Origin: a bacterium
GTDB lineage: Bacteria; UBP14; UBA6098; 4484-93
Assembly: GCA_021158465.1 (NCBI GenBank)
Contig: JAGGUN010000045.1
Coordinates: forward strand, 1-64,000
Length of the DNA: 64,000 nucleotides
Reading direction: 5' to 3'
Shown: piece by piece, positions 4,543 through 62,130 of the stretch
Layout of the letters: every line of letters begins with the position of its first letter
Numbering within the stretch: the first letter of the stretch is position 1
Made by a program: the position numbers and the translations under genes
Notes under the pieces: model-generated
Told to the model about the DNA's origin: nothing
Seen by the model: the letters and a program-made list of their open reading frames with translations, nothing else
The model's database searches: none

Positions 4543-6993
4543 TTACTTAACAACAATATTTATAAGCTTATCCTTCACATAAAATCGTTTCACAATCTGT
4601 TTTCCCTCTACATATTTTCTTACCTTATCGAGCTCGAGTGCAGACGCAACAACTGCTTCTTCATCGGAATCTGGTGGCAGGTTGATGGTTGCTCGGAGTT
4701 TGCCGTTTATCTGGATGGCGATTGTCACCGTCTCTGCAACAAGTGCCGCAGGATCGAAATCCGGGAATGGTGAGAGGAATATACTATCCTTCTCCCCCAT
4801 TCTGTGCCATATCTCCTCTGCAAGGTGAGGTGCAAACGGGGCAAGCAGTTTGATGAACCTTCTCGCAATATAATTTGGTATGGATGAATCATCTGGAAAG
4901 CGTGGTCCGAGTGTGTTAAGAAACTCCATCATAGCAGCAACTGCGGTATTGAATTGGATATTTTCGATGTCATCTTTCACGCGCTTTATAGCCCAGTGGA
5001 GCTTACGGTAGCGGAGTTTGTCCACATCCGGGAGCTGGTCAAAATCGAAGATTTCCTCATTGCCGGATAGATTGCAGAAGAAGTTGTAGACTCGTTCGAG
5101 GAAGCGGGAAGCGCCTTTCAACCCCTCGGACGACCAGAGAAGCTCCCTCTCCGGTGGTGCCATAAAAAGCATTCCAACCCTTACCGTATCCACGCCATAG
5201 TTCTCAATCAGTTCCATCGGTGAAACAACATTACCTTTAGATTTGCTCATAACCGCCCCATTTGCATCGAGCACCATCCCGTGATTGAACAGGGCAATTG
5301 CTGGCTCATCAACATCGAGATACCCGAGGTCGTGCAGCAACTTGGTGATAAATCGGAAATAGAGTAGATGCCCTGTGGCGTGTTCTGCTCCCCCTATGTA
5401 GAGGTCGACCGGCATCCAGCGGTTCGCATCTTGCCTGGAAAAAGGCTCTTCTTCGTTCTTCGGGTCGGTGTAGCGCAGATGATACCAGGATGAGCAGACG
5501 AATGTATCCATTGTATCCGGGTCACGGTGTGCAGTCCCACCACAGACAGGACAGATTGTATTCATAAATTCTGGCAGGTCCTCAAGCGGCGAGCGCCCTT
5601 GTGGAATAAAGTTTACCTTATCGGCAGGCGGTAGAAGAACAGGAAGGGCATCCTCTGGAACAGGGACGGTTCCACACTTCTCGCAGTGGACCACAGGTAT
5701 CGGTGCTCCCCAGTACCTCTGACGCGAGATGAGCCAATCGCGAAGCTTGTAGATTACCTTACTCCTTGCAAATCCACACCTTTCACCATACTCGGTCACC
5801 TTTTTTATTCCATCAGTGGAGGGAAGTCCATCAAAGGCTCCCGAATTTGTCATAATACCGCTCTCTGTGTATGCAGCATCCATTGTTGATGGGTCAAGCG
5901 AGCAACCGGGAGGATTGATGACAACCTTAATCGGCAGACCGTATCTTTTCGCAAACTCAAAATCCCGCTGGTCGTGCGCGGGAACAGCCATAACAACCCC
6001 GGTGCCATAAGAAGCAAGGACATAATCGGCAACCCATACAGCTACCCTTTCGCCGTTGTAAGGGTTGATGGCATAAAGCCCAGTGAAAACGCCATCCTTC
6101 TCCCTGCCATCGAACGAGCGCTCTATTTCTGGCTTCAGCAGAGCCTGCTGAACATACCTTTCCACCTCCTCCTTATTCGGCATAATCCCAAGGAGCTCAT
6201 CAACAAGCGGCTGCTCAGGGGCAAATGTAACAAATGTTACACCAAATATCGTGTCGGGGCGAGTTGTGAAGACGGAAAAAACCTTATCCGTCCCCTCAAT
6301 CTTGAAATCTATTTCCGTTCCTTCACTCTTGCCGATCCAGTTTCTCTGCATCGTTTTGATGTTCTCAGGCCAACCCTTGAGCCTATCAAGCCCTTCGAGC
6401 AACCTCTCAGCGTATGCCGTTATCCTGACAAACCACTGCTCCAGTCGTCTCTTCTCTACAACAGACTCACACCTCCAACACCTGCCAGCTATAACCTGCT
6501 CGTTTGCAAGCACAGTCTTGCAGGACGGACACCAGTTGACGAAGCTCATATCCCGATAAACAAGCCCCGATTCATAGAGCTTTAAGAAAACCCACTGTGT
6601 CCACCTGTAGTAGTCAGGTGAGGCTGTGATAATTTCCTTATCCCAGTCGTATGAGATCGATAGCCGTTTGAGCGTGTTCCTTGAGCGTGCGATATTGGAG
6701 AATGTCCATTTATCCGGTGGTATCTTGTGTTTTATTGCAGCCTGCTCCGCAGGCAGACCAAATGCATCCCAGCCAAAAGGATGCAAAATGTCGTATCCCT
6801 GCATCCTCTTGTACCGCCAGATGACATCACCGATTGTGTAGTTTCGGAAATGCCCCAGATGAATATCACCAGAGGGGTAAGCAAACATCTCAAGAAGGTA
6901 GAACTTTTTCTTAGGGTTATCGGGAGTCTTGTACAGACCTGTCTTTTCCCAATATTCCCGCCATCTCGCCTCAATCTCCTTGAACGGATACAC
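4543..6993 (-). CDS. leuS: Leucyl-tRNA synthetase
   Basis: An 816-residue class I aminoacyl-tRNA synthetase that charges tRNA-Leu. It shows the HIGH-type motif HLGHFRNY near the N-terminus, a Cys-rich zinc-binding insertion (CPSC...CWRC, near residues 155-180), the CP1 editing domain with TTRPDTIFG, a second CxxC pair near residues 430-490, and the KMSKS-type loop VMSKSKGN. Length is normal for bacteria. AAGGAGGG precedes the ATG, and a good promoter lies 28 nt further up. It is convergent with corA; the two stop codons touch. Confidence 0.97.
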   Translation of the reverse strand: MYPFKEIEARWREYWEKTGLYKTPDNPKKKFYLLEMFAYPSGDIHLGHFRNYTIGDVIWRYKRMQGYDILHPFGWDAFGLPAEQAAIKHKIPPDKWTFSNIARSRNTLKRLSISYDWDKEIITASPDYYRWTQWVFLKLYESGLVYRDMSFVNWCPSCKTVLANEQVIAGRCWRCESVVEKRRLEQWFVRITAYAERLLEGLDRLKGWPENIKTMQRNWIGKSEGTEIDFKIEGTDKVFSVFTTRPDTIFGVTFVTFAPEQPLVDELLGIMPNKEEVERYVQQALLKPEIERSFDGREKDGVFTGLYAINPYNGERVAVWVADYVLASYGTGVVMAVPAHDQRDFEFAKRYGLPIKVVINPPGCSLDPSTMDAAYTESGIMTNSGAFDGLPSTDGIKKVTEYGERCGFARSKVIYKLRDWLISRQRYWGAPIPVVHCEKCGTVPVPEDALPVLLPPADKVNFIPQGRSPLEDLPEFMNTICPVCGGTAHRDPDTMDTFVCSSWYHLRYTDPKNEEEPFSRQDANRWMPVDLYIGGAEHATGHLLYFRFITKLLHDLGYLDVDEPAIALFNHGMVLDANGAVMSKSKGNVVSPMELIENYGVDTVRVGMLFMAPPERELLWSSEGLKGASRFLERVYNFFCNLSGNEEIFDFDQLPDVDKLRYRKLHWAIKRVKDDIENIQFNTAVAAMMEFLNTLGPRFPDDSSIPNYIARRFIKLLAPFAPHLAEEIWHRMGEKDSIFLSPFPDFDPAALVAETVTIAIQINGKLRATINLPPDSDEEAVVASALELDKVRKYVEGKQIVKRFYVKDKLINIVVK

Positions 6994-22099: not shown

Positions 22100-23908
22100 A
22101 TGCGCTGGATTATTGCTCTTTTCCTATTGTTCAGTGGTTGCCTCCAAGCCTCCGATACTCTTGTTATCCTTCATACAAACGATAGCCACTCGCATCTCGT
22201 TGCATTCGGGCCCGAGGATGAGACAGGCAAGGGTATATACGGCGGCGTGGACAGACTGTCCACACTGATACAGGAGGAAAGGAGAAGCTCTACAAACAGC
22301 CTTATCCTCCACGCCGGCGACTTCTTTTTTGGGGGTATAATGTTTAACCGTTTCTCTGGGGTTGAGGAGCTACGACTCATTCACAGGCTCGGATTCGAGG
22401 CTTTGACCATTGGCAACCACGAGTTCGACAGGGGACCGGAGAGGCTATATAACACTCTCATAGAGGCAGAATCCACAGAGGAATTTCACTATCTATCAGC
22501 GAATATGGATGCATCCTGTTTCCCTGAACTTGCCGAGCTTGTCGAGCCGTTCTATATAAAGGATTTCCCACATTTCCGCGTCGGGATATTCGGGCTAACA
22601 ACCCAGGAGACAAACTACATCTCCTCTCCATCACCTGTTTGTTTCACAGACCCTGTAACATCAGCAAGAGATATGGTCGATACACTCAGATCACTTAGCT
22701 GCAACTTAATAATCCTTCTCTCCCACCTCGGTGTTAACGAGGATAGAATGGTCGCTAAGGAAGTCGCTGGGATACATATAATCGTCGGTGGACACGACCA
22801 CTACCTGTTTACCACACCAATTCCTGTGGAGAACCCGGAAGGCGACACAACTTACATCCTCCAGGTTGGTTGTTATAACCGGTATCTTGGCAAGATGATA
22901 ATGGAGATCGGTGAGGAAAACCGTATATTAGATTATGAGGTAATACCCGTCGACTCATCTGTCTACCCTGACCCTGCTATCTCATCCTATCTCGATTCTA
23001 TAGTCGAGATACTCGAGTCCACCCCGACACTTGCCGGTATGTACACCACTCCACTCATATATGTGCCTGAAGCCATTCCCGAGACCCCTCAAACTGATGG
23101 GTACCTTGACACGCCGCTCGGAAACCTTGTAACCGACGCCCTAAGAGAGACATCAGACGCTGATCTCGCACTGGAAACAAGCGAATCGGTCAGGCAGGAT
23201 ATATACCCTGGAATACTTTTTGGATACGAACTTTTTAGCGCAATCCCCATCGGGCTGGATCCAAGCACATACCTTACATCAAGGATTATCAGGATGTATA
23301 TCTCAGGAAACTCCCTTTATAGACTCCTGAACCTCCCGCTATCTCTTGGAAATCTTTTGATATACATCTCTGGTGGAAGATACACCGTCTACAACTCTGG
23401 CTCATCCTTCTCGGTCAGAAGGGAATCTGTTCTCGTGAACGGGGAGCCGCTCTTAGATGCTGCCACTTACTCTGTGGTGATAAGCCAGTTTTTCTACGAG
23501 ATGCTACCATCGCTATACATCTTCCCTGACAGCGCTGATACCCTGCCAATAACAGAGTTCGAAGCAGTCAGAGACTACATAATCGAGCACCCTGAAAGAG
23601 CACTTTCAGCAACCACCGAGGGCAGAATTATCCTCGAGGAAACGGGTATCGAGGAAAAGCCAGAAGAAAAAAGAAGCTCTTTGTCTATCTATCCAAATCC
23701 GTTCAACTCAACCCTGAGCATAAAAAGTGAAACAAACAGAGATATTCTCATATTCAATATAAAGGGTGAACTCATCCGGAGGTTACCCGCAGAAGACCAC
23801 ACCTGGGACGGGAAAGACAATTGGGGGAATCGGATGCCGTCAGGAGTATACCTTCTCAAGGAAGATATGCCGAACAGCAAACCGCAGAAAGCAGTTCTTA
23901 TAAGGTAA
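22100..23908 (+). CDS. Secreted UshA/5'-nucleotidase-family phosphoesterase with C-terminal sorting domain
   Basis: 602 residues. The signal peptide (RWIIALFLLFSGC) could be lipoprotein-type with Cys at 14, although -3 is Phe. The calcineurin-like metallophosphatase domain has the family metal ligands: HTNDSHSH, HAGDFF, GNHEFDRG, LSHLGVNED and GGHDHY. The 5'-nucleotidase C-terminal domain spans about 335-500. The last 75 residues (SIYPNPFNSTLSI ... SGVYLL) form a FlgD-like/type IX secretion sorting domain, so it should be exported to the surface. Substrate could be nucleotides or UDP-sugars. First of four closely linked genes. Confidence 0.9.
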   Translation: MRWIIALFLLFSGCLQASDTLVILHTNDSHSHLVAFGPEDETGKGIYGGVDRLSTLIQEERRSSTNSLILHAGDFFFGGIMFNRFSGVEELRLIHRLGFEALTIGNHEFDRGPERLYNTLIEAESTEEFHYLSANMDASCFPELAELVEPFYIKDFPHFRVGIFGLTTQETNYISSPSPVCFTDPVTSARDMVDTLRSLSCNLIILLSHLGVNEDRMVAKEVAGIHIIVGGHDHYLFTTPIPVENPEGDTTYILQVGCYNRYLGKMIMEIGEENRILDYEVIPVDSSVYPDPAISSYLDSIVEILESTPTLAGMYTTPLIYVPEAIPETPQTDGYLDTPLGNLVTDALRETSDADLALETSESVRQDIYPGILFGYELFSAIPIGLDPSTYLTSRIIRMYISGNSLYRLLNLPLSLGNLLIYISGGRYTVYNSGSSFSVRRESVLVNGEPLLDAATYSVVISQFFYEMLPSLYIFPDSADTLPITEFEAVRDYIIEHPERALSATTEGRIILEETGIEEKPEEKRSSLSIYPNPFNSTLSIKSETNRDILIFNIKGELIRRLPAEDHTWDGKDNWGNRMPSGVYLLKEDMPNSKPQKAVLIR

Positions 23909-51900: not shown

Positions 51901-52484
51901 GGCTCATCCGAAAGCTATACGACTGGGTCCTGCACTGGGCTGATACCCCTTACGGCTCGCCTGCATTGCTTCTGCTCGCTTTCTCAGAAGCTATATTCTT
52001 CCCTATTCCCCCAGATGTGTTGCTTATTCCACTTGCACTCGACAGACCCAGGAAAGCATTCTACTACGCGGCGCTTGCAACCTTCGCCTCAGCATCAGGA
52101 GCCATCACCGGATACCTCATCGGAGCAGAGCTTATGCAGCCGGTCGGATATCCGATACTCAGATTCTACGGATTGATGGACAAATTTGAGTATGTGGCAA
52201 CACAGTACCGCGCCTACGACGCAATAGCTGTCGGTATCGCCGGGTTGACCCCGATACCGTTCAAGGTATTCACCATCGCAGCAGGCGCCTGCAAACTGAA
52301 CATTCCGCGCTTCTTAATTGCAGCTTTTGTATCCCGTGGATTGAGGTTCTTCACCATATCAACACTGCTCTTCTTGTTCGGCGAAAGGATAAAAAACTTC
52401 ATCGACAGATACTTCAACCTGCTCACTATTATATTCGCTGCGCTACTCGTCGGGGGATTTATAATCCTGAAGAGACTGCTTTAG
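51897..52484 (+). CDS. VTT/DedA-family (YqaA-like) membrane protein
   Basis: 195 residues with four to five membrane helices. LLAFSEAIFFPIPPDVLLIPLAL, GAITGYLIG, GLTPIPFKVFTIAAGACKL and FLIAAFVSRGLRFF match the VTT (SNARE-associated) fold. DedA-type proteins flip undecaprenyl phosphate or phospholipids, which would suit the linked GT2 gene. The stop codon is interleaved with that of the GT9 gene on the other strand (shared 4 nt). Confidence 0.88.
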   Translation: MRLIRKLYDWVLHWADTPYGSPALLLLAFSEAIFFPIPPDVLLIPLALDRPRKAFYYAALATFASASGAITGYLIGAELMQPVGYPILRFYGLMDKFEYVATQYRAYDAIAVGIAGLTPIPFKVFTIAAGACKLNIPRFLIAAFVSRGLRFFTISTLLFLFGERIKNFIDRYFNLLTIIFAALLVGGFIILKRLL

Positions 52485-53518
52485 ATTGTGTCTAATATTT
52501 TAGACATTTTCTCTATCAGCTCATTCAGATTCGGCTCTCCTGAGATAGCGACAAAATTCTGCTTTCTGGGCGAGAAGCGAGCAGCGTCCGATGAAACGAA
52601 TATCCCTATCTGGTGAAGCGGTTGTATGCAGCCCGCAAGATGCATAATGCCTGTATCGCAGGAGACAAAAACGGAAAGCTTCTCAAGAGCAGCCCCCACA
52701 GTAAGAACAGGCGATAGCGGGAAGAAGTATGTGTTAGGAATATCTCTTTTCTTCAGATACTCGACATCTTTCTCTTCTGTTTTCCCCCAGAAAACAACCT
52801 TGGGAAGATCAGGAAACCTTAAAAGAAAATCTTCCCAGAAACCCACAGGTAGCTTTTTTCTACCCCTTCCGCCGATATGGAGACCGATAATCTTAGCTTC
52901 TAATTTGTTTTCATCGAAGAACTTTTGCGCAGATATCCTCGACCTATCATCGATATAAACCCTCGGTGGAATTCGAACAACAGAGGAGAACGGCTCGAGT
53001 AGCCTCAAAAAACTGTAAGCCTCATACTCTGCTCCATCCGGTGTCGGGACGCTCAAATCAAGGAATTCTGACCCTTTTCCTCTGTCGAACCCGACAGAAA
53101 ATCGAGGCGCAGGAAGAAGTGTGTATAGAATATTATTCACAGAAACAGAATCAAAGTGTGAGAGGTCAAAAGCAATGTCGAACCTTTCCCGCCTCAACTG
53201 AAGGATTAGCTTAAAGAAGGATAGCGGATTAAGAGCAAACTCCCTCTTTCTCACCTCGAATACACGGCTCACCGCCGGGTGATACCGGACTATATCGGAG
53301 AATACCGCCGGTGCAACGACAGCCACGGTTGCATCGGGATAAATCTTCTTTAAGTTCTCGAGAAACGGTGTTATGAGTATCAGGTTGCCGAGCCTCTCGT
53401 CCTGCCTGACAACGAGAACTTTCTCGACCTTATCGGGTAGAGCTGCTTTCCTCCTTTTTAGCCCGCACAGAAGCCAAACAAGCTGCCTTCTCCCCCATCG
53501 CTCGAGTTGCTTGAGCAT
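52481..53518 (-). CDS. Family 9 glycosyltransferase (heptosyltransferase-like)
   Basis: 345 residues of the GT-B fold. KVLVVRQDERLGNLILITPFLENLKK, IGLHIGGRGRKKLP and VSCDTGIMHLAGCIQ are the typical nucleotide-sugar site and ends of ADP-heptose:LPS heptosyltransferases (RfaF/RfaQ). Probably adds heptose or another sugar to lipopolysaccharide or a surface glycan. It starts 1 nt after the giant surface protein, so it is expressed with it, possibly glycosylating it (speculation). Confidence 0.87.
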   Translation of the reverse strand: MLKQLERWGRRQLVWLLCGLKRRKAALPDKVEKVLVVRQDERLGNLILITPFLENLKKIYPDATVAVVAPAVFSDIVRYHPAVSRVFEVRKREFALNPLSFFKLILQLRRERFDIAFDLSHFDSVSVNNILYTLLPAPRFSVGFDRGKGSEFLDLSVPTPDGAEYEAYSFLRLLEPFSSVVRIPPRVYIDDRSRISAQKFFDENKLEAKIIGLHIGGRGRKKLPVGFWEDFLLRFPDLPKVVFWGKTEEKDVEYLKKRDIPNTYFFPLSPVLTVGAALEKLSVFVSCDTGIMHLAGCIQPLHQIGIFVSSDAARFSPRKQNFVAISGEPNLNELIEKMSKILDTI

Positions 53519-53519
53519 C

Positions 53520-56500
53520 TCATCTGACCAGATTCACGGAGCCAGAGCAAATGTTATGTTTGCCCCTCTTAATAATGTAGATGTATATCCCGTTTCTGGC
53601 TACTCTGCCACTTTCTGTCATTCCATCCCAGATAGCACGCTTTACCTCGCCCGCCGGAACCTGTATCCTTCTTATTATATGCCCGGAAAGGTCGTATATC
53701 TCGATCGTCGCATCCCTGCTGAAGAGCTTTGGATATGTGAATCTAACCTCGTCGTTGTAGCCGTCCCCGTTCGGCGTGAACGGATTGGTAGAAATCTCGC
53801 AGGAGAGTTCAGGTTCTATCCAGAAAAACAGATTACTGGATGAGCAGTTCGGCTCGCAGTAGTCAGGGGAATCACATATCCTAATCTCAATTGCCACAGA
53901 ATCGCCATCCCTCGCACGGAACCCACCAGCATAGGGGAATATATCAAACAGTATATCATCCGGGTTAAAGAAAACACCCGGCGATGAGGAGTAAAGCGTA
54001 TCCGTCGTTCCACCGTTAATTATTGTATATATGAGCGAAAAGCTCGCTGTATCGACCCCCGAGAGGTCAGAGAAGGAAGCCGTTATGTGCAGGTTATCTC
54101 TGTCAACGAGTGCCCCATCGGAGGGGTATCGGATCTCAATATCTGGCGGGGTCGTATCGACCACAAAACTCCAAAAGATAGTCTCCGACAGTGGAAAACC
54201 GAGGGTATCCCTCGCCGAGACAAGAGAAACCCTAACCTCTCCTTCATCAAAGAACCCTAAAGGCGGCTGGAATACAACAAGCGTACCCGAAACCGTAAGA
54301 TAAGGGCTGGTTATGTCAAACACCTCTCCATCGACATCAAGCACCACAGATTCCGGGTCAAGACCGTTTTCACTCACAACAGCAAGGGTAATTGGCTGGT
54401 CGGTGCAGGATGAACTGCTACCCGGATACGGCTCAAGTATATAAAAGGTTGGTCTTGGCAGGATGTCTATTGCAAATGTGTCGGACATAAGAAACGAGCG
54501 GTCTGTTTCACGCTCCCCGTCGAAATCGTTATCCCAGGCAAGCAGGCGGAAGATGATGAGAGTATGAGCAGGCTGACCTGCCAAAGGAAGTACGCTTGTG
54601 GCATATATCCTGTCCCCGGACACCGAATCGAGAGCGAGTATCCCCTCATTTGCCGTTATCTCCAGCTCGCCATCCGTGTCCCAGACAATGCGTGGATAAT
54701 GCATATCGGAGATAAAATCAGGGAAATACACCCCTGACTCGTCCTTCAGAATACAGGAGAAATAGAACGCAGAGTCGGAAGGGAAGAATCTGGGAGAATA
54801 ATCCAGCAGCAGGGGCGGAAGCGTGTCATCATCGGCGATTGTAAAGCTCCACGAGATAGGCTCGACTATCCCATTTGCTCCACAGTATTCCGCTCTATCA
54901 GATGCGGAGACAACAGAGACTACCACAGGCGTCAGCTCCGGATACACAACACCGACCGAATCCGGAACAAATACAAATGTATCCCCTGTCTGATACATCG
55001 CAGGGCTCGAGATGTAGTAGTCTGTTCCCATAACCCTGAGAGCAACACTCGTTGTGTCGAGTCCGCTTATTGAATCGAGGGCGGTGAAGACGACATTCGG
55101 TCTCGGCTCCAATAAAAACGCACCATCCAGCGGATAGACAGGAAGAACAACAGGGGGTGAGAGGTCAATCACAAAATAGAAGGAAAAGGTGCTATCCATC
55201 GGGTTCCCGAGTGTGTCCTCGGCATACCTCACCTCGACACAGACCGTCTCACCATCTGCAAACGAGCTATCAGGATTGAAGAATAATGTATCCCCGGATA
55301 ATAGAAAATCATCCTCAGGCACACCATTTACCAGAAATTCGATGGTCTCCTCTCTCACACCGCTTGGGTCGTCGAAGAATATCACAATCTCCTGGCGCTC
55401 GCAGGACGAAAAGGCAGAAAAGTCTGGTCTAATTGCCACAGGAAGAGGACCATACTTATCGACGAAGAGATACCAGCAACTATCGGTAACGTTTCCACCA
55501 CATAGCGTCGCAAGGTCGGTAAGATGAATGCACATTCCAAGAGAATCCTCCGGGAGAGCGAAACCAATAGAGTCGGCAAATACGCAGAGCGTCCCAGCAG
55601 AATAGAAAACAAACTCATCACCAAAACAGAGCGTCGTATCCCCACAGGAAAACCGGATACTGGTGCTATCGACACCTGCAAGGTCATCGGTCAAAACAAG
55701 GGTCATCTGCGGTAAAGACGCTATTACAGAACCGACCGACGGCGAAATATCCTCAATCACAGGTGGGAGTGTGTCCATATAGAACTCAAATCGTATAATA
55801 TCTCCCAGCGGATTGCCGATGCTGTCGTATGCCGATACGACAAATAGCCTGTTCGTGTCGGAAAAATCCTCAGGATAATCAACGGTCAAAACAGTGTCCG
55901 AAAAAGAGAGCTCAGGTGAAGGGAAACAGAATGTATCCTCATTGAATACGACACCAATCGATTCAGGGATAACACCGTTCTCATCGGTTATGAGAAGCTC
56001 GATGGGGATATTTTGGCAGGATATAATCGAACGGTCTGGCGGAGTAATAAGCTCCACCGATGGTCCCTCCTGATTAACCAGGAAGCTCCAGCAGGTATCG
56101 GCAACATTCGGCGGACAGATTCCACCCCTGTCAGGAACCGATACGCAAACAGAAACCGTATCGCCATCGTGGAAGGCAACACCGAACGAATCGGGATAGA
56201 AATAAAGCGTATCACCGATAACAAAGCATCCTGTGAACTCATCACCATCGACAACGAACAGAACGGAATCAACATCTATTCCCGACAGGATATCGGTCGC
56301 TACAACCCCTATCGGCTGATATGTTCTCGAGGAAACCGAGCCGGGAGTTGGAATAAGAGATATTATCTCAGGCGGCGAAAGGTCAAAACGGAGCCACCAG
56401 CCACGAGAAGCTCCCAGGTTACCCACAATATCAGAGAAACCCGAAACAGAGATATAGACAGAATCACCATCAGAGAAAGAGCTTGTGAGCGGGAAGATAA

Positions 56501-58532
56501 GCAGTGTGTCACCGAACGGTTCCATACCGTCCGGATATGCGAAACTCTCCTCTCCGAACTGAACTATCGTTCCCACAAAATCGGTGCCGGATATGTCGTA
56601 AAAGCGGAAGATAACCTCTGTGCTATCGCAGGAAATATACCCTTCATCCTCCGGCTGGACAAGTTCTACCAGAGGACCTTCCGTGTCAACGAAGAACCGC
56701 CAGCAGAACTCCGTTGAGTTCGGACTACAGTATAAGGCAGAATCGGCAACAGACAGGCAAATATCAACGGTGTCAGGTAGAACAAGTCCCATAAGAAGCG
56801 TTCTGAAGGAGAGAAAATGCCCATCCCAGAAGAGAGCAGGCGTGGCAACAGTGAACAGAGAATCACCGATGGAAAGCGTTATCGAATACGGGTCGATACC
56901 GGCGATCTCATCAACTATCTCTGATGTTATGTTCGGCTGCCTGTTGGAGATAATCGTATCCGACGATGGATAAACAGATATTACCTCAGGCGGAGAAAGG
57001 TCAACAATAAACGAGAACTCCACCGGCTCAACAAGTCCACAACCAGACAGATTATCAACAGAAACAAGGTTACCCGAGACCGTATCACCGTCATCGAAAC
57101 AGTCCATATCCCCAGGGATAAAACTTATCATATCTTCCTCGGGACCGAGCGAGAAATACTCCCCGCCAGTATAGAGCCTACCATTTATCTCGACAGTAGC
57201 ATCGTCCAGAACAATATCCGAGAGAGAATGCACCCTAAATCTAACAGGCTGACAGGGACAACTGGAGACCGCTCCTGTCTCCGGGATGACAAGCTCAGCA
57301 GACACCCCATCATTTGCAAGATAGAAATCTATCCAGTGAAACACAGGCAAATCCTCTGCCCCGCCGCGCGTCATCTGAACCATATACTGCCAGCATCTCG
57401 CCGTCCTGACAACCCCCGGAATAGGATGAGGGTGTGTAATGGGTACCCACTCTGTCCATCCAACACCATCCGGTGAGGCTTTGAGATATACCCGAAGCTC
57501 GCTCGTTCCAGGCACATCAGCCGACCATAAGATAGAATCGACTACCGTTTCGCAGGGGAAACCAAATGTGTCCGAAACAAATACCGCTGTCCCTCTGCCA
57601 CCGTGATATGAGAAATACATCACATTCATCATCGCCTTGGCTTCCCACTCCGCCGGTGGCTCCCAGGATGTGTGCCCATAGTTGAAATAGCCAGAATACG
57701 AATTATAGTCCGGGTTATGGTAGGTGTGCATATACAGACCCTCCATACCAGGGAAAAGAAGACCCGTCTTTTTATACCACATCGTCCCCGAAACAACCAC
57801 CTGACCGCGGGAGTGCGTCGTGTTCACCTCAAACTCGTGGGGAAGCTCAAAAGGATAATGCAGCACAGGATTGGTAACATCCTCGGAGACGAGCGTAACA
57901 TCGGTATAATGTGGATAGGTCCAGTTAGGCGTCGTGGTGAGACCAGAAACATCTGTCAGGCTGGCAAAGTTCTCATGATAGTAAGGCGATACCCCGGCTC
58001 CCTCGGCGATTGTTCCATGAGTGAAAACAACCCCCCTACCAAGCCTGGCAAAACTTCTTGTGACAGCAGCAGAAGAACGCGATAGGTCATTGTGACCATA
58101 AACATCGCCGGAGCCGAAAAACAGGATATCATAATCGGCGATACAGCGGCGATACTCGGTGCCATACAGCGTGCTGTGAACAGTCCCGCTATCATAGATG
58201 CTCGTTACTTCGTTGAAAATGCTTATGGGAACAAGGTCAATGGAGAAGTTCAAAGGCGGGTTCCCTGTTGACTGCAGTTCATAGACCACACTACAGATGC
58301 AATCGAGGCACATACCGTCAGGATAGACCTGTAGGACAAATATCGTATCGTCGGTAGTCATACGGAGAGCCGCGTCATCGAGACCATCGGGGTCAGGGGT
58401 GATAACCTCCATATTCCTGATACTACCTGCCAGGAAATCAGCAAGCTCTCCCTCCCGGTAAGTAAAGCTCGTCTGCCCCATAAGAGGAAGGGTAGACATA
58501 AAAAGCAATACCAAAGACAAAATCTTCTTCAT
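53520..58532 (-). CDS. Giant surface protein (1670 aa): Ig-like repeats plus C-terminal gliding-type sorting domain
   Basis: Signal peptide (MKKILSLVLLFMSTLPLMG). Residues about 25-330 hold a GATase/ThuA-like N-terminal domain (ADYDILFFGSGDVYGHND, RGVVFTHG). From about 430 to 1560 follow about ten Ig-like repeats of 90-115 residues; each opens with an (S/L/T)PP or GP motif after Asp (DLSPPEIISLIPTPGS, DTEGPLVELVQP), in two alternating types. The last 90 residues (NPFTPNGDGYNDEVRF ... YDLSGHIIRRIQVP ... IWDGMTESGRVARNGIYIYI) are a CHU_C/gliding-motility-type C-terminal domain. Likely cell-surface, with adhesion or structural role. ATGA with the outer-membrane gene upstream. Confidence 0.88.
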   Translation of the reverse strand: MKKILSLVLLFMSTLPLMGQTSFTYREGELADFLAGSIRNMEVITPDPDGLDDAALRMTTDDTIFVLQVYPDGMCLDCICSVVYELQSTGNPPLNFSIDLVPISIFNEVTSIYDSGTVHSTLYGTEYRRCIADYDILFFGSGDVYGHNDLSRSSAAVTRSFARLGRGVVFTHGTIAEGAGVSPYYHENFASLTDVSGLTTTPNWTYPHYTDVTLVSEDVTNPVLHYPFELPHEFEVNTTHSRGQVVVSGTMWYKKTGLLFPGMEGLYMHTYHNPDYNSYSGYFNYGHTSWEPPAEWEAKAMMNVMYFSYHGGRGTAVFVSDTFGFPCETVVDSILWSADVPGTSELRVYLKASPDGVGWTEWVPITHPHPIPGVVRTARCWQYMVQMTRGGAEDLPVFHWIDFYLANDGVSAELVIPETGAVSSCPCQPVRFRVHSLSDIVLDDATVEINGRLYTGGEYFSLGPEEDMISFIPGDMDCFDDGDTVSGNLVSVDNLSGCGLVEPVEFSFIVDLSPPEVISVYPSSDTIISNRQPNITSEIVDEIAGIDPYSITLSIGDSLFTVATPALFWDGHFLSFRTLLMGLVLPDTVDICLSVADSALYCSPNSTEFCWRFFVDTEGPLVELVQPEDEGYISCDSTEVIFRFYDISGTDFVGTIVQFGEESFAYPDGMEPFGDTLLIFPLTSSFSDGDSVYISVSGFSDIVGNLGASRGWWLRFDLSPPEIISLIPTPGSVSSRTYQPIGVVATDILSGIDVDSVLFVVDGDEFTGCFVIGDTLYFYPDSFGVAFHDGDTVSVCVSVPDRGGICPPNVADTCWSFLVNQEGPSVELITPPDRSIISCQNIPIELLITDENGVIPESIGVVFNEDTFCFPSPELSFSDTVLTVDYPEDFSDTNRLFVVSAYDSIGNPLGDIIRFEFYMDTLPPVIEDISPSVGSVIASLPQMTLVLTDDLAGVDSTSIRFSCGDTTLCFGDEFVFYSAGTLCVFADSIGFALPEDSLGMCIHLTDLATLCGGNVTDSCWYLFVDKYGPLPVAIRPDFSAFSSCERQEIVIFFDDPSGVREETIEFLVNGVPEDDFLLSGDTLFFNPDSSFADGETVCVEVRYAEDTLGNPMDSTFSFYFVIDLSPPVVLPVYPLDGAFLLEPRPNVVFTALDSISGLDTTSVALRVMGTDYYISSPAMYQTGDTFVFVPDSVGVVYPELTPVVVSVVSASDRAEYCGANGIVEPISWSFTIADDDTLPPLLLDYSPRFFPSDSAFYFSCILKDESGVYFPDFISDMHYPRIVWDTDGELEITANEGILALDSVSGDRIYATSVLPLAGQPAHTLIIFRLLAWDNDFDGERETDRSFLMSDTFAIDILPRPTFYILEPYPGSSSSCTDQPITLAVVSENGLDPESVVLDVDGEVFDITSPYLTVSGTLVVFQPPLGFFDEGEVRVSLVSARDTLGFPLSETIFWSFVVDTTPPDIEIRYPSDGALVDRDNLHITASFSDLSGVDTASFSLIYTIINGGTTDTLYSSSPGVFFNPDDILFDIFPYAGGFRARDGDSVAIEIRICDSPDYCEPNCSSSNLFFWIEPELSCEISTNPFTPNGDGYNDEVRFTYPKLFSRDATIEIYDLSGHIIRRIQVPAGEVKRAIWDGMTESGRVARNGIYIYIIKRGKHNICSGSVNLVR

Positions 58533-59119
58533 CTTACAATGTTATACCCGAGACCAAGCATCATATCGATATTGTCTATGTCGGAGAGGTTATATTTCCC
58601 AGAAAGGATAGCATAAAACTTCTCACCCAAAACAAGGTTTGTCCCGAAATCTATATGCAGTTCGAGAGGTGTTTCTGTCTCGTCTGCCTGTGGCCAGTCC
58701 TCGGGATAATCCGTCTTATAGTGATTGAAACCGAGACCAGCACCTACAAACGGCTTCAACCTTGGATGGAAATCGAACAGATACTTGAGGCTCGCTCCAC
58801 CGCCGATACAGGAAAATCTAACATCATCATCCGCGCTCGACCAGCCATACTCATCTCTCTTTACCTTCCAGTATTCGAAAAATAGCTCTGGCTTGAGGTT
58901 TGGTACGAGATACCCGAGGTCAACGAACCCTGCAATCTTTGTGTTTGGGTCATAGTTACCACCCGTTGGAATGACAACCCCCAGCTTTACACCAGCAGAC
59001 TTGAGCCCGATATCCACCTGCCCCCTCGAGCCTCCGTAATACACCACAGTATCCGCCTGAGCAACCAGCTCCACCGAAAGGAAAAGAAAGAACAGAAGAA
59101 TAGCCAATCTCTTGACCAT
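58529..59119 (-). CDS. Outer-membrane beta-barrel protein
   Basis: 196 residues. Signal peptide MVKRLAILLFFLFLSVELVAQ. The mature chain alternates beta strands: VDIGLKSAGVKLGVVIP, KIAGFVDLGYL, PELFFEYWKVKRDEYGWS, GGGASLKYLFDFHPRLKPFVGAGLGFNHY and FYAILSGKYNLSDIDNIDMMLGLGYNIVR, as in small OmpA/OmpX-like barrels. Translationally coupled to the giant surface protein, so it may be its outer-membrane anchor or partner (inference). AAGGAG precedes the ATG. Confidence 0.82.
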   Translation of the reverse strand: MVKRLAILLFFLFLSVELVAQADTVVYYGGSRGQVDIGLKSAGVKLGVVIPTGGNYDPNTKIAGFVDLGYLVPNLKPELFFEYWKVKRDEYGWSSADDDVRFSCIGGGASLKYLFDFHPRLKPFVGAGLGFNHYKTDYPEDWPQADETETPLELHIDFGTNLVLGEKFYAILSGKYNLSDIDNIDMMLGLGYNIVR

Positions 59120-59162: not shown

Positions 59163-59191
59163 ATAATACCTTATTTTCGCCTGATTGTCAA
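59163..59191 (-). promoter_or_regulatory. Promoter of the outer-membrane/giant-protein operon
   Basis: Minus strand: TTGACA (59191-59186), 17-bp spacer, TATTAT (59168-59163). The leader of about 37 nt carries AAGGAG. Confidence 0.7.
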
Positions 59192-59652: not shown

Positions 59653-60739
59653 AGCTGGACTTGCCCTTTTATTCTCGGCTCTCTTACTAGCACCAGTTGC
59701 GATATTAAACCATATGATAAAAGGCGTGAAAAAGATATTTGGAAACCTTTTGATTGCGTTAGCTATTCTTATTGTGATTGGAATTGCCTTGCTTTCAATC
59801 CCATACTCCGTTTTCTATAAGGACACATCTAAGGTAATTGATGCAACTATAGTTATACCAAAGGGTTATACCCTACAAAATACCGCAAGGCTGCTGACAG
59901 AGGAGCGTATAATAAACAGACCCAACCTCTTCATCCTTTGGGCAAAGCTTTTAGGGTTCGATAGAAAGATCCGTGCTGGCAGGCACAGGCTTGTCGGTTC
60001 GTACTCGCTCTTCGGACTTCTCCGGGCACTTTCACAGGGAGGAAGCTTCTCTATAGACATCACCGTTTATGAAGGTGAAAATATATATGAGATTGCGGGA
60101 GTTGTTGAACATAAGCTTGGTATAGATTCTCTTTCCTTTCTCGAGAGGGCAACAAACGATTCCCTTATGAAGGCGATCGGCATCCCTTCAACAACCGCAG
60201 AGGGGTTCTTGTTTCCGGAGACTTACAACATCGACCCAGGTACATCGGCTGATGAGCTGATAGCGATAATGTACCATCAGTTCAAGCAGGAGTTCAACAG
60301 CAATCTCCGTGCTCGTGCGGAATCCCTCGGGATGTCGATTAGGGATGTTGTTACCCTCGCTTCTATCATCGAAAAGGAAGCATATTTCCCCGAGGAGATG
60401 CCGAGGATATCCGGCGTATATCACAACAGGCTTTCAAGTGGTATGCTGCTTCAGGCCTGCCCTACGGTGAACTATGCACTCAAGCAGTTCGACAAGCGGC
60501 TCTTATACGAGGACCTCGAGCTGGATTCCCCATACAATACATACAAATACAGTGGACTCCCTCCAACTCCAATTGCCAACCCCGGCAAGAAGGCAATCTT
60601 AGCAGCGCTTTATCCCGAAAAACACGATTTCTACTACTTTGTCTCGGAAGGAGAGGGGCATCATAGCTTCTCAAGGACGGAAAAGGAACATGCAGAGGCG
60701 ATAAGAACGATAAGAAAGAGAAAGGCTAACCTAAGGTGA
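59636..60739 (+). CDS. mltG: Endolytic murein transglycosylase MltG
   Basis: 367 residues (YceG family). An N-terminal membrane anchor (about residues 30-55), a LysM-like ATIVIPKGYTLQNTARLL and the catalytic domain with LASIIEKEAYFPEEMPRISGVYHNRL (catalytic Glu), QACPTVNYAL, SPYNTYKYSGLPPTPIANPG and KHDFYYFVSEGEGHHSFS. It cuts growing peptidoglycan strands. The start is uncertain: ATG 59636 (overlapping ruvX by 17 nt) or ATG 59714, which leaves a single membrane anchor, the usual topology. Confidence 0.93.
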   Translation: MLRTIKAGLALLFSALLLAPVAILNHMIKGVKKIFGNLLIALAILIVIGIALLSIPYSVFYKDTSKVIDATIVIPKGYTLQNTARLLTEERIINRPNLFILWAKLLGFDRKIRAGRHRLVGSYSLFGLLRALSQGGSFSIDITVYEGENIYEIAGVVEHKLGIDSLSFLERATNDSLMKAIGIPSTTAEGFLFPETYNIDPGTSADELIAIMYHQFKQEFNSNLRARAESLGMSIRDVVTLASIIEKEAYFPEEMPRISGVYHNRLSSGMLLQACPTVNYALKQFDKRLLYEDLELDSPYNTYKYSGLPPTPIANPGKKAILAALYPEKHDFYYFVSEGEGHHSFSRTEKEHAEAIRTIRKRKANLR

Positions 60740-62130
60740 AAGAAAATCTACATGTGACACTTCTCCTGATACTTTTTCTCGCTGGCGCTGCTGCCAGCTC
60801 ACCCGTGGGAAGCTTTGAGCTTTCCCCAAAACCGGCAGGAAACGAGATAGGCGACATTATATTCGATGGAGAGGGGATCTGGGTAACATCGGATAACGGG
60901 ATCTCTTACTCACTTGATCTCGGAGCAAGCTGGGAAAACTTCCTGCCAGGGATAGAATCATCAGGTCTATCAGGACATAGGGGATTTGTTGTGCTTGCAG
61001 CAAGCCATGAGGAAGCTTATGAAGGGGAGCTATACCCCGCAGGCGATGGCTTCTTCATAACAACTGATGCTGGGGTAAATTGGAGGAACTGTACGCCTGA
61101 GCAAGCAGTCGGCATAGGGAAGCTGGCTTACGATGTCGGAGTCGAGGAGGACTCAACAATATGGGCTGCCTGTTTCTACGGCGGGCTTATCAAAAGCGAG
61201 GACAAAGGAGAAAGCTGGGTTAATGTGTTTGTTGATACCGCCGACACAGAGATAAACTACAACGATCTAACGCATAGGTTCTTCGCCACGGCAATCGACA
61301 CATCAACAGAACCAAACACCATCTGGGCTGGAACAGCAGCAGGGATATTCAAAAGCACCGACGGAGGCTGGGAGTGGCTCGGATGGAACCATGAATCATC
61401 CGGTATATCCGGGAACTTTATCGTTGCCTTAGCAATCCAGTACCTCCCCGACAGGTCAAAGGTCGTTTGGGCATCGACAAGGCAGGCTGTCTCCGAGAGC
61501 GAGTGGGATTGTGTATCATACACAACAGACGGTGGAGAGAGCTGGCACACATTCGACTACAATATGACCGTCTGGAACTTCTCATTTCAAGACAGTATAG
61601 TGTATGCAGCAACAACTGGCGGATTATGCGTCTCTGGCGATTTTGGAGAAACCTGGGATACACTGGAAATCGTCGATTGTGGCACAGGAGAACCACCAAC
61701 AGACCCAGAGGTGGTGTCCGTCCTCTATCAAGACGGAAAAATCTTTGCTGGCACATCAAGCGGTCTTGCAATAAAGGATATCGATGCCCCATGTTGGGAT
61801 ATACTACTCGTATCACCGTCCACACTCCCCCCCAATGCCCCAAAAACATACTTTTTCCCCAGCCCGTTCTCACAGGAAAAACACTCAAGAGGGTATTTCG
61901 TCTTCAGCTCAACAGAACCCGATAACGCAACGATAACGGTGTTCAACTTTGCTATGGAGGAGGTAGCAAGACCCATCGTGAACTATCCTATTCCGGCAGG
62001 AGAGGATGTTCGCATCCCCTGGGACGGGACAGACACAGATGAAGAGACACTGGCAAACGGGATCTATTTCTATAGAATTGAGTTCTCATCCGGCAGAAGA
62101 TTATGGGGGAAATTAGCGATCCTAAAATAA
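60736..62130 (+). CDS. Secreted BNR/sialidase-like propeller with C-terminal sorting domain
   Basis: 464 residues. Starts at GTG (GTGA overlap with mltG). Signal peptide VTLLLILFLAGAAA. Repeats with Asp-box-like SDNGISYSLDLGASWENF, TTDAGVNWRN, KSEDKGESWVN, KSTDGGWEWLG, TTDGGESWHTF and SGDFGETWDTL are the BNR/Ycf48-type SxDxGxxW motifs. The end FFPSPFSQEKHSRG ... LANGIYFYRIEFSSGR is an FlgD-like/type IX sorting domain. Ligand or role unknown. Confidence 0.85.
   Translation: MKENLHVTLLLILFLAGAAASSPVGSFELSPKPAGNEIGDIIFDGEGIWVTSDNGISYSLDLGASWENFLPGIESSGLSGHRGFVVLAASHEEAYEGELYPAGDGFFITTDAGVNWRNCTPEQAVGIGKLAYDVGVEEDSTIWAACFYGGLIKSEDKGESWVNVFVDTADTEINYNDLTHRFFATAIDTSTEPNTIWAGTAAGIFKSTDGGWEWLGWNHESSGISGNFIVALAIQYLPDRSKVVWASTRQAVSESEWDCVSYTTDGGESWHTFDYNMTVWNFSFQDSIVYAATTGGLCVSGDFGETWDTLEIVDCGTGEPPTDPEVVSVLYQDGKIFAGTSSGLAIKDIDAPCWDILLVSPSTLPPNAPKTYFFPSPFSQEKHSRGYFVFSSTEPDNATITVFNFAMEEVARPIVNYPIPAGEDVRIPWDGTDTDEETLANGIYFYRIEFSSGRRLWGKLAILK

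Follow-up and report, generated by a model that had tools for sequence, protein, structure and literature searches.

A candidate type IX-secreted giant protein with a ThuA-like head and a predicted disulfide-stapled Ig stalk in the candidate phylum UBP14

Here we ask whether three tightly packed genes on the minus strand of a 64,000-nucleotide stretch of DNA (hereafter the window: positions 1 to 64,000 of contig JAGGUN010000045.1, assembly GCA_021158465.1) encode a dedicated surface-fibre system, and what the giant protein at their centre may be. The window belongs to a bacterium of UBP14, a candidate phylum that to our knowledge is known from metagenomes only. The genes code, in this order, for a small outer-membrane beta-barrel of 196 residues (58529..59119), a giant protein of 1670 residues (53520..58532, supported by the open reading frame call, a profile match and collinear full-length homologues) and a heptosyltransferase-like enzyme of glycosyltransferase family 9 (GT9; 345 residues, 52481..53518). 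The original prediction, made from the letters alone, proposed that the barrel anchors the giant and that GT9 glycosylates it. Its reading frames and junctions are found where it put them, the barrel and giant genes overlapping by 4 nucleotides (ATGA) and giant and GT9 being spaced by 1 base, although the span that it gave (53520-59119) holds the barrel and the giant and leaves GT9 outside. The reading that we consider probable is a different one: the giant would be a rod of disulfide-stapled immunoglobulin-like (Ig-like) units, headed by a ThuA-like domain, displayed by the type IX secretion system (T9SS) and widespread in the class, to which GT9 is linked in its own genus only.

Head, stalk and conservation of the giant

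The comparisons drew on 17 genomes of the class, among them the genome of the window (G000) and a second genome of the same genus (G001), and the search for the head of the giant covered 117 genomes. Residues 61-318 (57579..58352) were modelled with AlphaFold2 from a 20-sequence alignment (predicted local distance difference test, pLDDT, 83) and have a ThuA-like, class I glutamine amidotransferase-like (GATase-like) fold, as the original prediction had read from the letters: the model matches 2gk3 (Z 16.9, root-mean-square deviation, rmsd, of 2.8 over 200 residues), 4jqs (Z 16.8) and 1t0b (Z 16.4). What distinguishes the giant from the ThuA-like and GATase-like proteins with which it shares this fold is that it carries it as the head of an Ig stalk and that its nearest profile is DUF5057, matched by 17 of the 20 head sequences at E<=1 (best 2e-8), on which a literature search found nothing. 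Seven polar positions (N107, D149, H172, T174, H240, K299 and N303) are identical in all 20 head sequences, down to 31% identity, while H287 is identical in 19 and position 297 is E in 18 and D in the other two. We take the head to be, in all probability, a domain that binds or acts on a small molecule or a glycan. Beta-galactosidases were the best Foldseek matches of the head, with low TM-score, and were set aside, the ThuA-like assignment resting on the other structure comparison. Searching the PDB by sequence with the whole giant gave no match at E<=1, and searching it with the head profile gave two designed proteins (E 0.028 and 0.19) that we took as chance matches.

A beta-rich module at residues 319-410 (57303..57578), delimited by the secondary structure of the head model, is followed by a stalk of eleven domains, whose order we read as B A B A B A B A, domain 9, B A. 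The first eight are Ig-like repeats, B-A four times, at residues 411-1238 (54819..57302), assigned from pairwise repeat scores and cysteine coupling with the fold modelled for the last one only; domain 9 occupies residues 1239-1358 (54459..54818), with 15 of its 120 columns invariant in 11 sequences, and the last B-A pair occupies residues 1359-1573 (53814..54458), on repeat scores and the fold model. Against shuffled alignments the ten A-A comparisons scored about 5 to 20 and the ten B-B comparisons about 2 to 19, while domain 9 scored at most 2.2 with every other domain, its sequence being unlike A or B. Because some A-B scores are also high (12.7 for domains 4 and 10, 12.2 for 4 and 7, 11.5 for 2 and 10), the two types are related and their typing leans also on the cysteine motifs. 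The repeat scores thus agree with the original prediction of about ten Ig-like repeats of two alternating types, with the amendments that one odd domain is added and that the types are related and overlap in score. No tandem repeats were found at the DNA level.

The model of residues 1126-1670, the one stretch of the stalk and tail for which a fold was modelled, has an Ig/FN3-like fold (pLDDT 81; predicted template modelling score 0.52) and matches Ig and FN3 tandems, SiiE, GhpA and the C-terminal region of PorU at Z of 9-11. These matches, several of them with large rmsd, show no more than a common fold, in the modelled C-terminal third. The likeness to GhpA of Aureispira (PDB 9flw), a long multi-domain surface protein (Z 9.2, rmsd 26.3), and to the giant adhesin SiiE (2yn3, Z 10.2) stands accordingly at the level of fold only.

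The head was found in 14 of the 17 class genomes and in 15 of the 117 genomes searched; the sole match beyond the class is marginal, with E 2.7e-5 across 70 residues. Eleven full-length giants, from our genome and seven others, can be aligned over their whole length, the ten others sharing 32-37% identity with that of the window. Their length is 1670-1695 residues in families f1, f2 and f4 and 1461-1471 in f3, whose giants are missing two repeats. Mean pairwise identity is 0.49 for the tail, 0.46 for the head and 0.32-0.41 for the stalk domains, pairs covering less than half of a domain having been dropped, so that the values for R5 and R6 use 21 of the 55 pairs. Head and stalk are conserved across most of the class.

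A second architecture, in which the head is joined to a different C-terminus, was seen in five loci (G002:C14, G005:C106, G006:C47, G008:C104 and G015:C9; our loci L076, L078, L079, L084 and L085, the last being G002:C14). Within their last 30 residues, four of these five proteins have GYW and the fifth has AYW.

Coupled cysteines along the stalk

The cysteines of the A-B units vary in two coupled pairs. We collected 27 open frames no shorter than 700 residues from our own genome, taken from 11 fetched stretches and the window, and a profile of the A-to-B junction found 175 junctions in 15 of these proteins. Four sites were scored, which in the window are C0 = 592, C1 = 602 and C2 = 610, all in A, and C3 = 635 in the next B; a junction was counted only if all four were ungapped, which removed 50 of 175 in our genome and 60 of 127 in the relatives. 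Among the 125 ungapped junctions of our genome, C0 and C2 were both present in 88, both absent from 37 and discordant in none, and C1 and C3 were both present in 76, both absent from 36 and discordant in 13. The profile also catches B-to-A junctions, by which these unconditioned counts are inflated, and the conditional test addresses this inflation: within the 88 junctions holding C0-C2, the second pair was complete in 73, absent from 11 and discordant in 4 (p=1.3e-10). The relatives (40 proteins, 67 usable junctions) gave 38, 28 and 1 for C0-C2 and 45, 14 and 8 for C1-C3 in the same order, and within their 45 junctions holding C1-C3 the first pair was complete in 35, absent from 10 and discordant in none (p=3e-10); the p-values overstate independence because the repeats are paralogous. 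The spacing between C1 and C3 is 33 residues at all three regular junctions of the window giant.

A coupled pair inside A and another that links A to the B after it suggest a rod stapled by two kinds of disulfide. No report of stapled Ig rods was found in the literature, in searches that were thin. The same A-B Ig family includes an open frame of 4369 residues elsewhere in our genome (L095, G000:C54, 1564-14673), with 28 junction matches.

Type IX secretion and the candidate partners of the giant

The giant ends in a type-B-like T9SS C-terminal domain at residues 1574-1670 (53523..53813), which scores 32.7 bits against the CHU_C gathering threshold of 27 and in which Cys1578 and Cys1662 are invariant in the eleven aligned sequences. 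PorU was over cut-off in 15 of the 17 class genomes (608.6 bits in ours) and in 0 of 14 control genomes, and SprA was likewise over cut-off in 15 of 17 (669.5 bits in ours, with neighbours). By these profile matches the genome encodes a T9SS sortase and translocon, the system being assigned on these two genes, and because of them export of the giant by the T9SS appears likely. The TIGR04131 profile found 15 type-B-like tails in our genome, two of them partial; four are over cut-off and that of the window giant comes fifth.

In the mechanism that we propose, the giant would be made with a Sec signal peptide and exported through SprA, its C-terminal domain serving as secretion and targeting signal. 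It would then be held at the outer surface, where the ThuA-like head would sit at the tip of a rod whose length hardly varies and which consists of A-B Ig units with disulfides within A and from A to the following B. With SprB/SprF and the other type B proteins of Flavobacterium johnsoniae, and with PG1035/PorP of Porphyromonas gingivalis, the giant has in common a T9SS tail of type-B-like kind and a genome holding PorU and SprA. It differs from SprB/SprF in lying outside the Bacteroidota, in its ThuA-like head, in its A-B Ig units with coupled cysteines, in a length nearly constant across families, in a barrel upstream in two of these and in the absence of a PorP/SprF-like gene beside it.

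Several observations weigh against this reading. The aligned tail covers positions 5-85 of the 85 of TIGR04131 at 26.0 and 31.8 bits, under the curated cut-off of 35; the gliding-type C-terminal domain of the original prediction thus scores above the threshold of CHU_C and below that of this second profile. The signal peptide is a hydrophobic N-terminus judged by eye only. For SprA, G005 gave no match and G014 a weak one, and in our own genome the last stretch of SprA runs across a stop codon. Of the 20 head sequences, 1 matches the ThuA family profile PF06283, with E 0.019. No head was detected in G003, G012 and G014, of which G003 is 96% complete. Finally, the disulfides rest on sequence coupling among paralogous, non-independent repeats, and in the relatives the coupling of C1 with C3 within the 38 junctions holding C0-C2 (35 complete, 1 absent, 2 discordant) is not significant (p=0.08).

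PMC12618676 describes 9 of 12 type B substrates of F. johnsoniae as adjacent to a PorP/SprF-like gene, and orphan type B substrates of Bacteroidota as sharing a shuttle; SprB/SprF-type systems include orphans too (PMC12618676 and PMC9143113). The gene directly downstream of the giant is GT9 and not a PorP/SprF-like gene, and the six PorP/SprF-like matches to PF11751 in our genome all lie off the contig of the window. The giant would then be an orphan type B substrate whose shuttle is probably encoded elsewhere, because no PorP/SprF gene stands beside it.

The six matches (C9:20790-21539, C9:38259-38993, C36:113578-114372, C40:12535-13260, C40:15375-16130 and C41:95038-95691; loci L097, L100, L101, L139, L142 and L143) belong to open frames of 932-975 residues. 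Those at C40:12535, C41:95038 and C9:38259 come directly after an A-B Ig giant and that at C9:20790 follows one with a 123-residue open reading frame between, while C40:15375 follows another PorP/SprF-like gene and the one on C36 follows no giant. Five of the six have PorP_SprF and OmpA matches in the same chain (in one of these five PorP_SprF reaches 19.5 bits against 22.3); in the sixth, on C36, no OmpA match was found in the first 806 residues, which were those scanned. A CARDB domain is present in five of the six. Judged by these domain matches, the PorP/SprF-OmpA proteins naturally join shuttle and wall anchor in one chain. The corresponding PorP-like and PorE-like (OmpA-type) components of Bacteroidota are distinct proteins, for which a joint wall-anchored complex with the substrate has been proposed (PMC9143113 and PMC12618676). 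No report of such a fusion was found, again in thin searches, and searches for type IX secretion in Zixibacteria, or in Fibrobacteres and Gemmatimonadetes, and for a gliding-type C-terminal domain together with Ig-like and outer membrane found nothing. In locus L101 (G000:C40, 1-16000) two Ig giants, one of 2370 residues, truncated where the contig begins, and one of 1738, are followed by two PorP/SprF-OmpA fusions, apparently in one operon.

Two further genes of the window, both on the plus strand, may have tails of related type. A BNR-repeat protein (60736-62130) whose tail weakly resembles FlgD_ig/CHU_C (20.3 and 18 bits, each short of the 27 required) is possibly another T9SS substrate, and a 602-residue protein (22100-23908), 5'-nucleotidase-like by eye, has a short T9SS-like tail with a partial TIGR04131 match of 21.8 bits.

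Neighbouring genes and rival readings

The alternative that survives best concerns the small barrel, an OMP_b-brl protein (PF13505, 34.4 bits against 28.7), as the cognate shuttle or anchor of the giant in f1 and f4, in the manner of SprF for SprB; we regard it as doubtful. Upstream neighbours were visible at 14 loci (G008:C44, whose contig ends 187 nucleotides past the giant, was left out), these and the downstream counts given below excluding the contig-end head fragments G002:C133, G002:C77 and G016:C1 and the second-architecture head of G006. A barrel gene lies directly upstream of the giant, on the same strand, in seven of them (G000, G001, G004, G007, G009, G011 and G013) and not in G002 and G005 (two loci each), G010, G015 and G016, which amounts to all 7 visible loci of f1 and f4 and none of the 7 of f2 and f3. 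To the overlap of 4 nucleotides in our genome may be added gaps of 65-94 nucleotides in f4, by open reading frame starts. The f4 barrels group with those of f2 (support 0.88) and not with those of f1, from which it follows that the adjacency is old or arose twice. On the other side, a barrel homologue occurs in 16 of the 17 class genomes, including three (G003, G012 and G014) that yielded no head. The barrel has no match to the PorP/SprF profile PF11751 at E<=0.1, a match that a functional analogue might equally lack. The SprF-like genes described in PMC12618676 lie downstream of their substrate, whereas the barrel lies upstream. The anchoring partner of the original prediction is thus weakly supported, with adjacency in half of the loci in its favour and barrels in genomes that yielded no head against it; in the reading that we prefer the barrel would be a lineage-specific helper or anchor in f1 and f4.

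The barrel gene itself has a ribosome-binding-like site and a signal-like N-terminus, both judged by eye. Ahead of it stands a promoter-like TTGACA-17-TATTAT (59163..59191, minus strand; 11 of 12 consensus bases) ending 43 bases before the start codon, back to back with the promoter-like site of the divergent gene. A motif scan of the region found 7 such sites where 8.3 are expected by chance, so that this one, although the best, is suggestive only. In G005:C197 the place of the barrel, about 600 bases upstream of an f2 giant, is taken by a PorV-like gene (L069, 6400-7605; PF19572 37.9 bits against 27, PorV_fam 87.5 against 90). The f2 copies in G002:C11 and G005:C194 adjoin a Der-like GTPase gene (by eye), as in the window, with neither barrel nor GT9 beside them.

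A broader proposal, which we put forward tentatively and hold to be somewhat less likely again, is that UBP14 has rebuilt the type-B branch of the T9SS, with two-disulfide A-B rods, single-chain PorP/SprF-OmpA shuttles and a ThuA-headed rod using an 8-stranded-type barrel instead. It takes the two disulfides of each A-B unit as independent and draws on the fused shuttles beside several giants.

Improbable in our judgement is a scaffold role for the giant in the periplasm or after release, the head being a degenerate spacer without function. ThuA/GATase-like folds can be non-catalytic, and no catalytic nucleophile was assigned in the head. The seven invariant polar positions speak against a spacer, however, and so does the better conservation of the head relative to the stalk.

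Even less credible is the dedicated three-gene fibre system of the original prediction, in which GT9 glycosylates the giant. In its favour stands the close packing of the genes, which overlap or abut in both G000 and G001, the protein identity between these two being 89-95%. Because the order recurs in G001 and, between the two genomes, the barrel, GT9 and the compared 1368-codon part of the giant all have a ratio of nonsynonymous to synonymous substitution (dN/dS) below 1, this order is not due to chance. The content of serine and threonine in the whole giant (9.9% and 7.1%) and a GT9-like gene about 5 kb downstream of the second-architecture head protein of G002:C14 also fit. Synteny decides against it nonetheless, and we reject it. 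Among the 12 loci with a visible downstream gene (the contigs of G009, G011 and G013 end inside the giant), GT9 follows the giant in two, those of G000 and G001, and in the other ten the downstream neighbour resembles the window GT9 in none (blastp E<=1e-5). The full unit, the order of which the original prediction had expected to be conserved, is in this way restricted to the genus. Among the neighbours scanned at those loci are a metallophosphoesterase (G007), MscS-type channels (G010, G015), PemK and Fib_succ_major proteins (both in G005) and, in G008 and G016, unnamed proteins 240-242 residues long.

The properties of GT9 point in the same direction. The enzyme belongs to family PF01075 (29.2 bits against 22), which it shares with the lipopolysaccharide (LPS) heptosyltransferases, and its best matches are the models of these enzymes, although below every equivalog cut-off shown, including those for LPS heptosyltransferases I, II and III (TIGR02193: 76.1 bits against 185.3). 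There are four GT9-like places in our genome. The two closest relatives in the class, in G005 and G003, adjoin an MsbA-like gene and a GT4-type gene, the MsbA-like exporter fragment beside one GT9 relative scoring 201.9 bits against 602 in a sequence that ends at the locus end. LpxC was found in 15 of the 17 class genomes, ours included, and GmhA is over cut-off in our genome. Given LpxC, GmhA and the neighbours of the relatives, a role in LPS or another surface glycan is the simpler reading, with GT9 as a glycan- or LPS-type transferase linked to the giant in its own genus only; that it also glycosylates the giant is a less likely reading. That GT9 might belong only to LPS synthesis, a finding that the original prediction had itself named as telling against its proposal, is hence partly borne out by synteny and the LPS genes.

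In G001 the frame of the giant is broken near residue 318 (L068, about 5016-5100), by a real change or an assembly error. The synonymous divergence of the compared part of the giant between the two genomes (0.11; window against L068 994-5100) is lower than in five neighbouring genes (0.24-0.61), as if the gene had recently been exchanged.

The least probable alternative, that the small barrel is PorG, the 8-stranded T9SS barrel tied to GldK by C-tail cysteines, has the similar size and barrel class and the homologue in nearly all class genomes in its favour and was discarded because the C-tail cysteine, a conserved PorG feature (PMC12635249), is absent from all 14 aligned barrel sequences. The profile DUF6089, which we take to be the label for PorG, matched nowhere, controls included, and is uninformative.

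These results indicate that most genomes of this candidate phylum, which lies outside the Bacteroidota, carry genes for the sortase and translocon of a T9SS, and that our genome holds a set of type-B-like giants. The PorP/SprF-OmpA fusions would offer a natural-fusion argument for the proposed wall-anchored complex of substrate, PorP and PorE, and the coupling of cysteines within and between the A and B domains gives a concrete prediction of how very long Ig rods may be stiffened.

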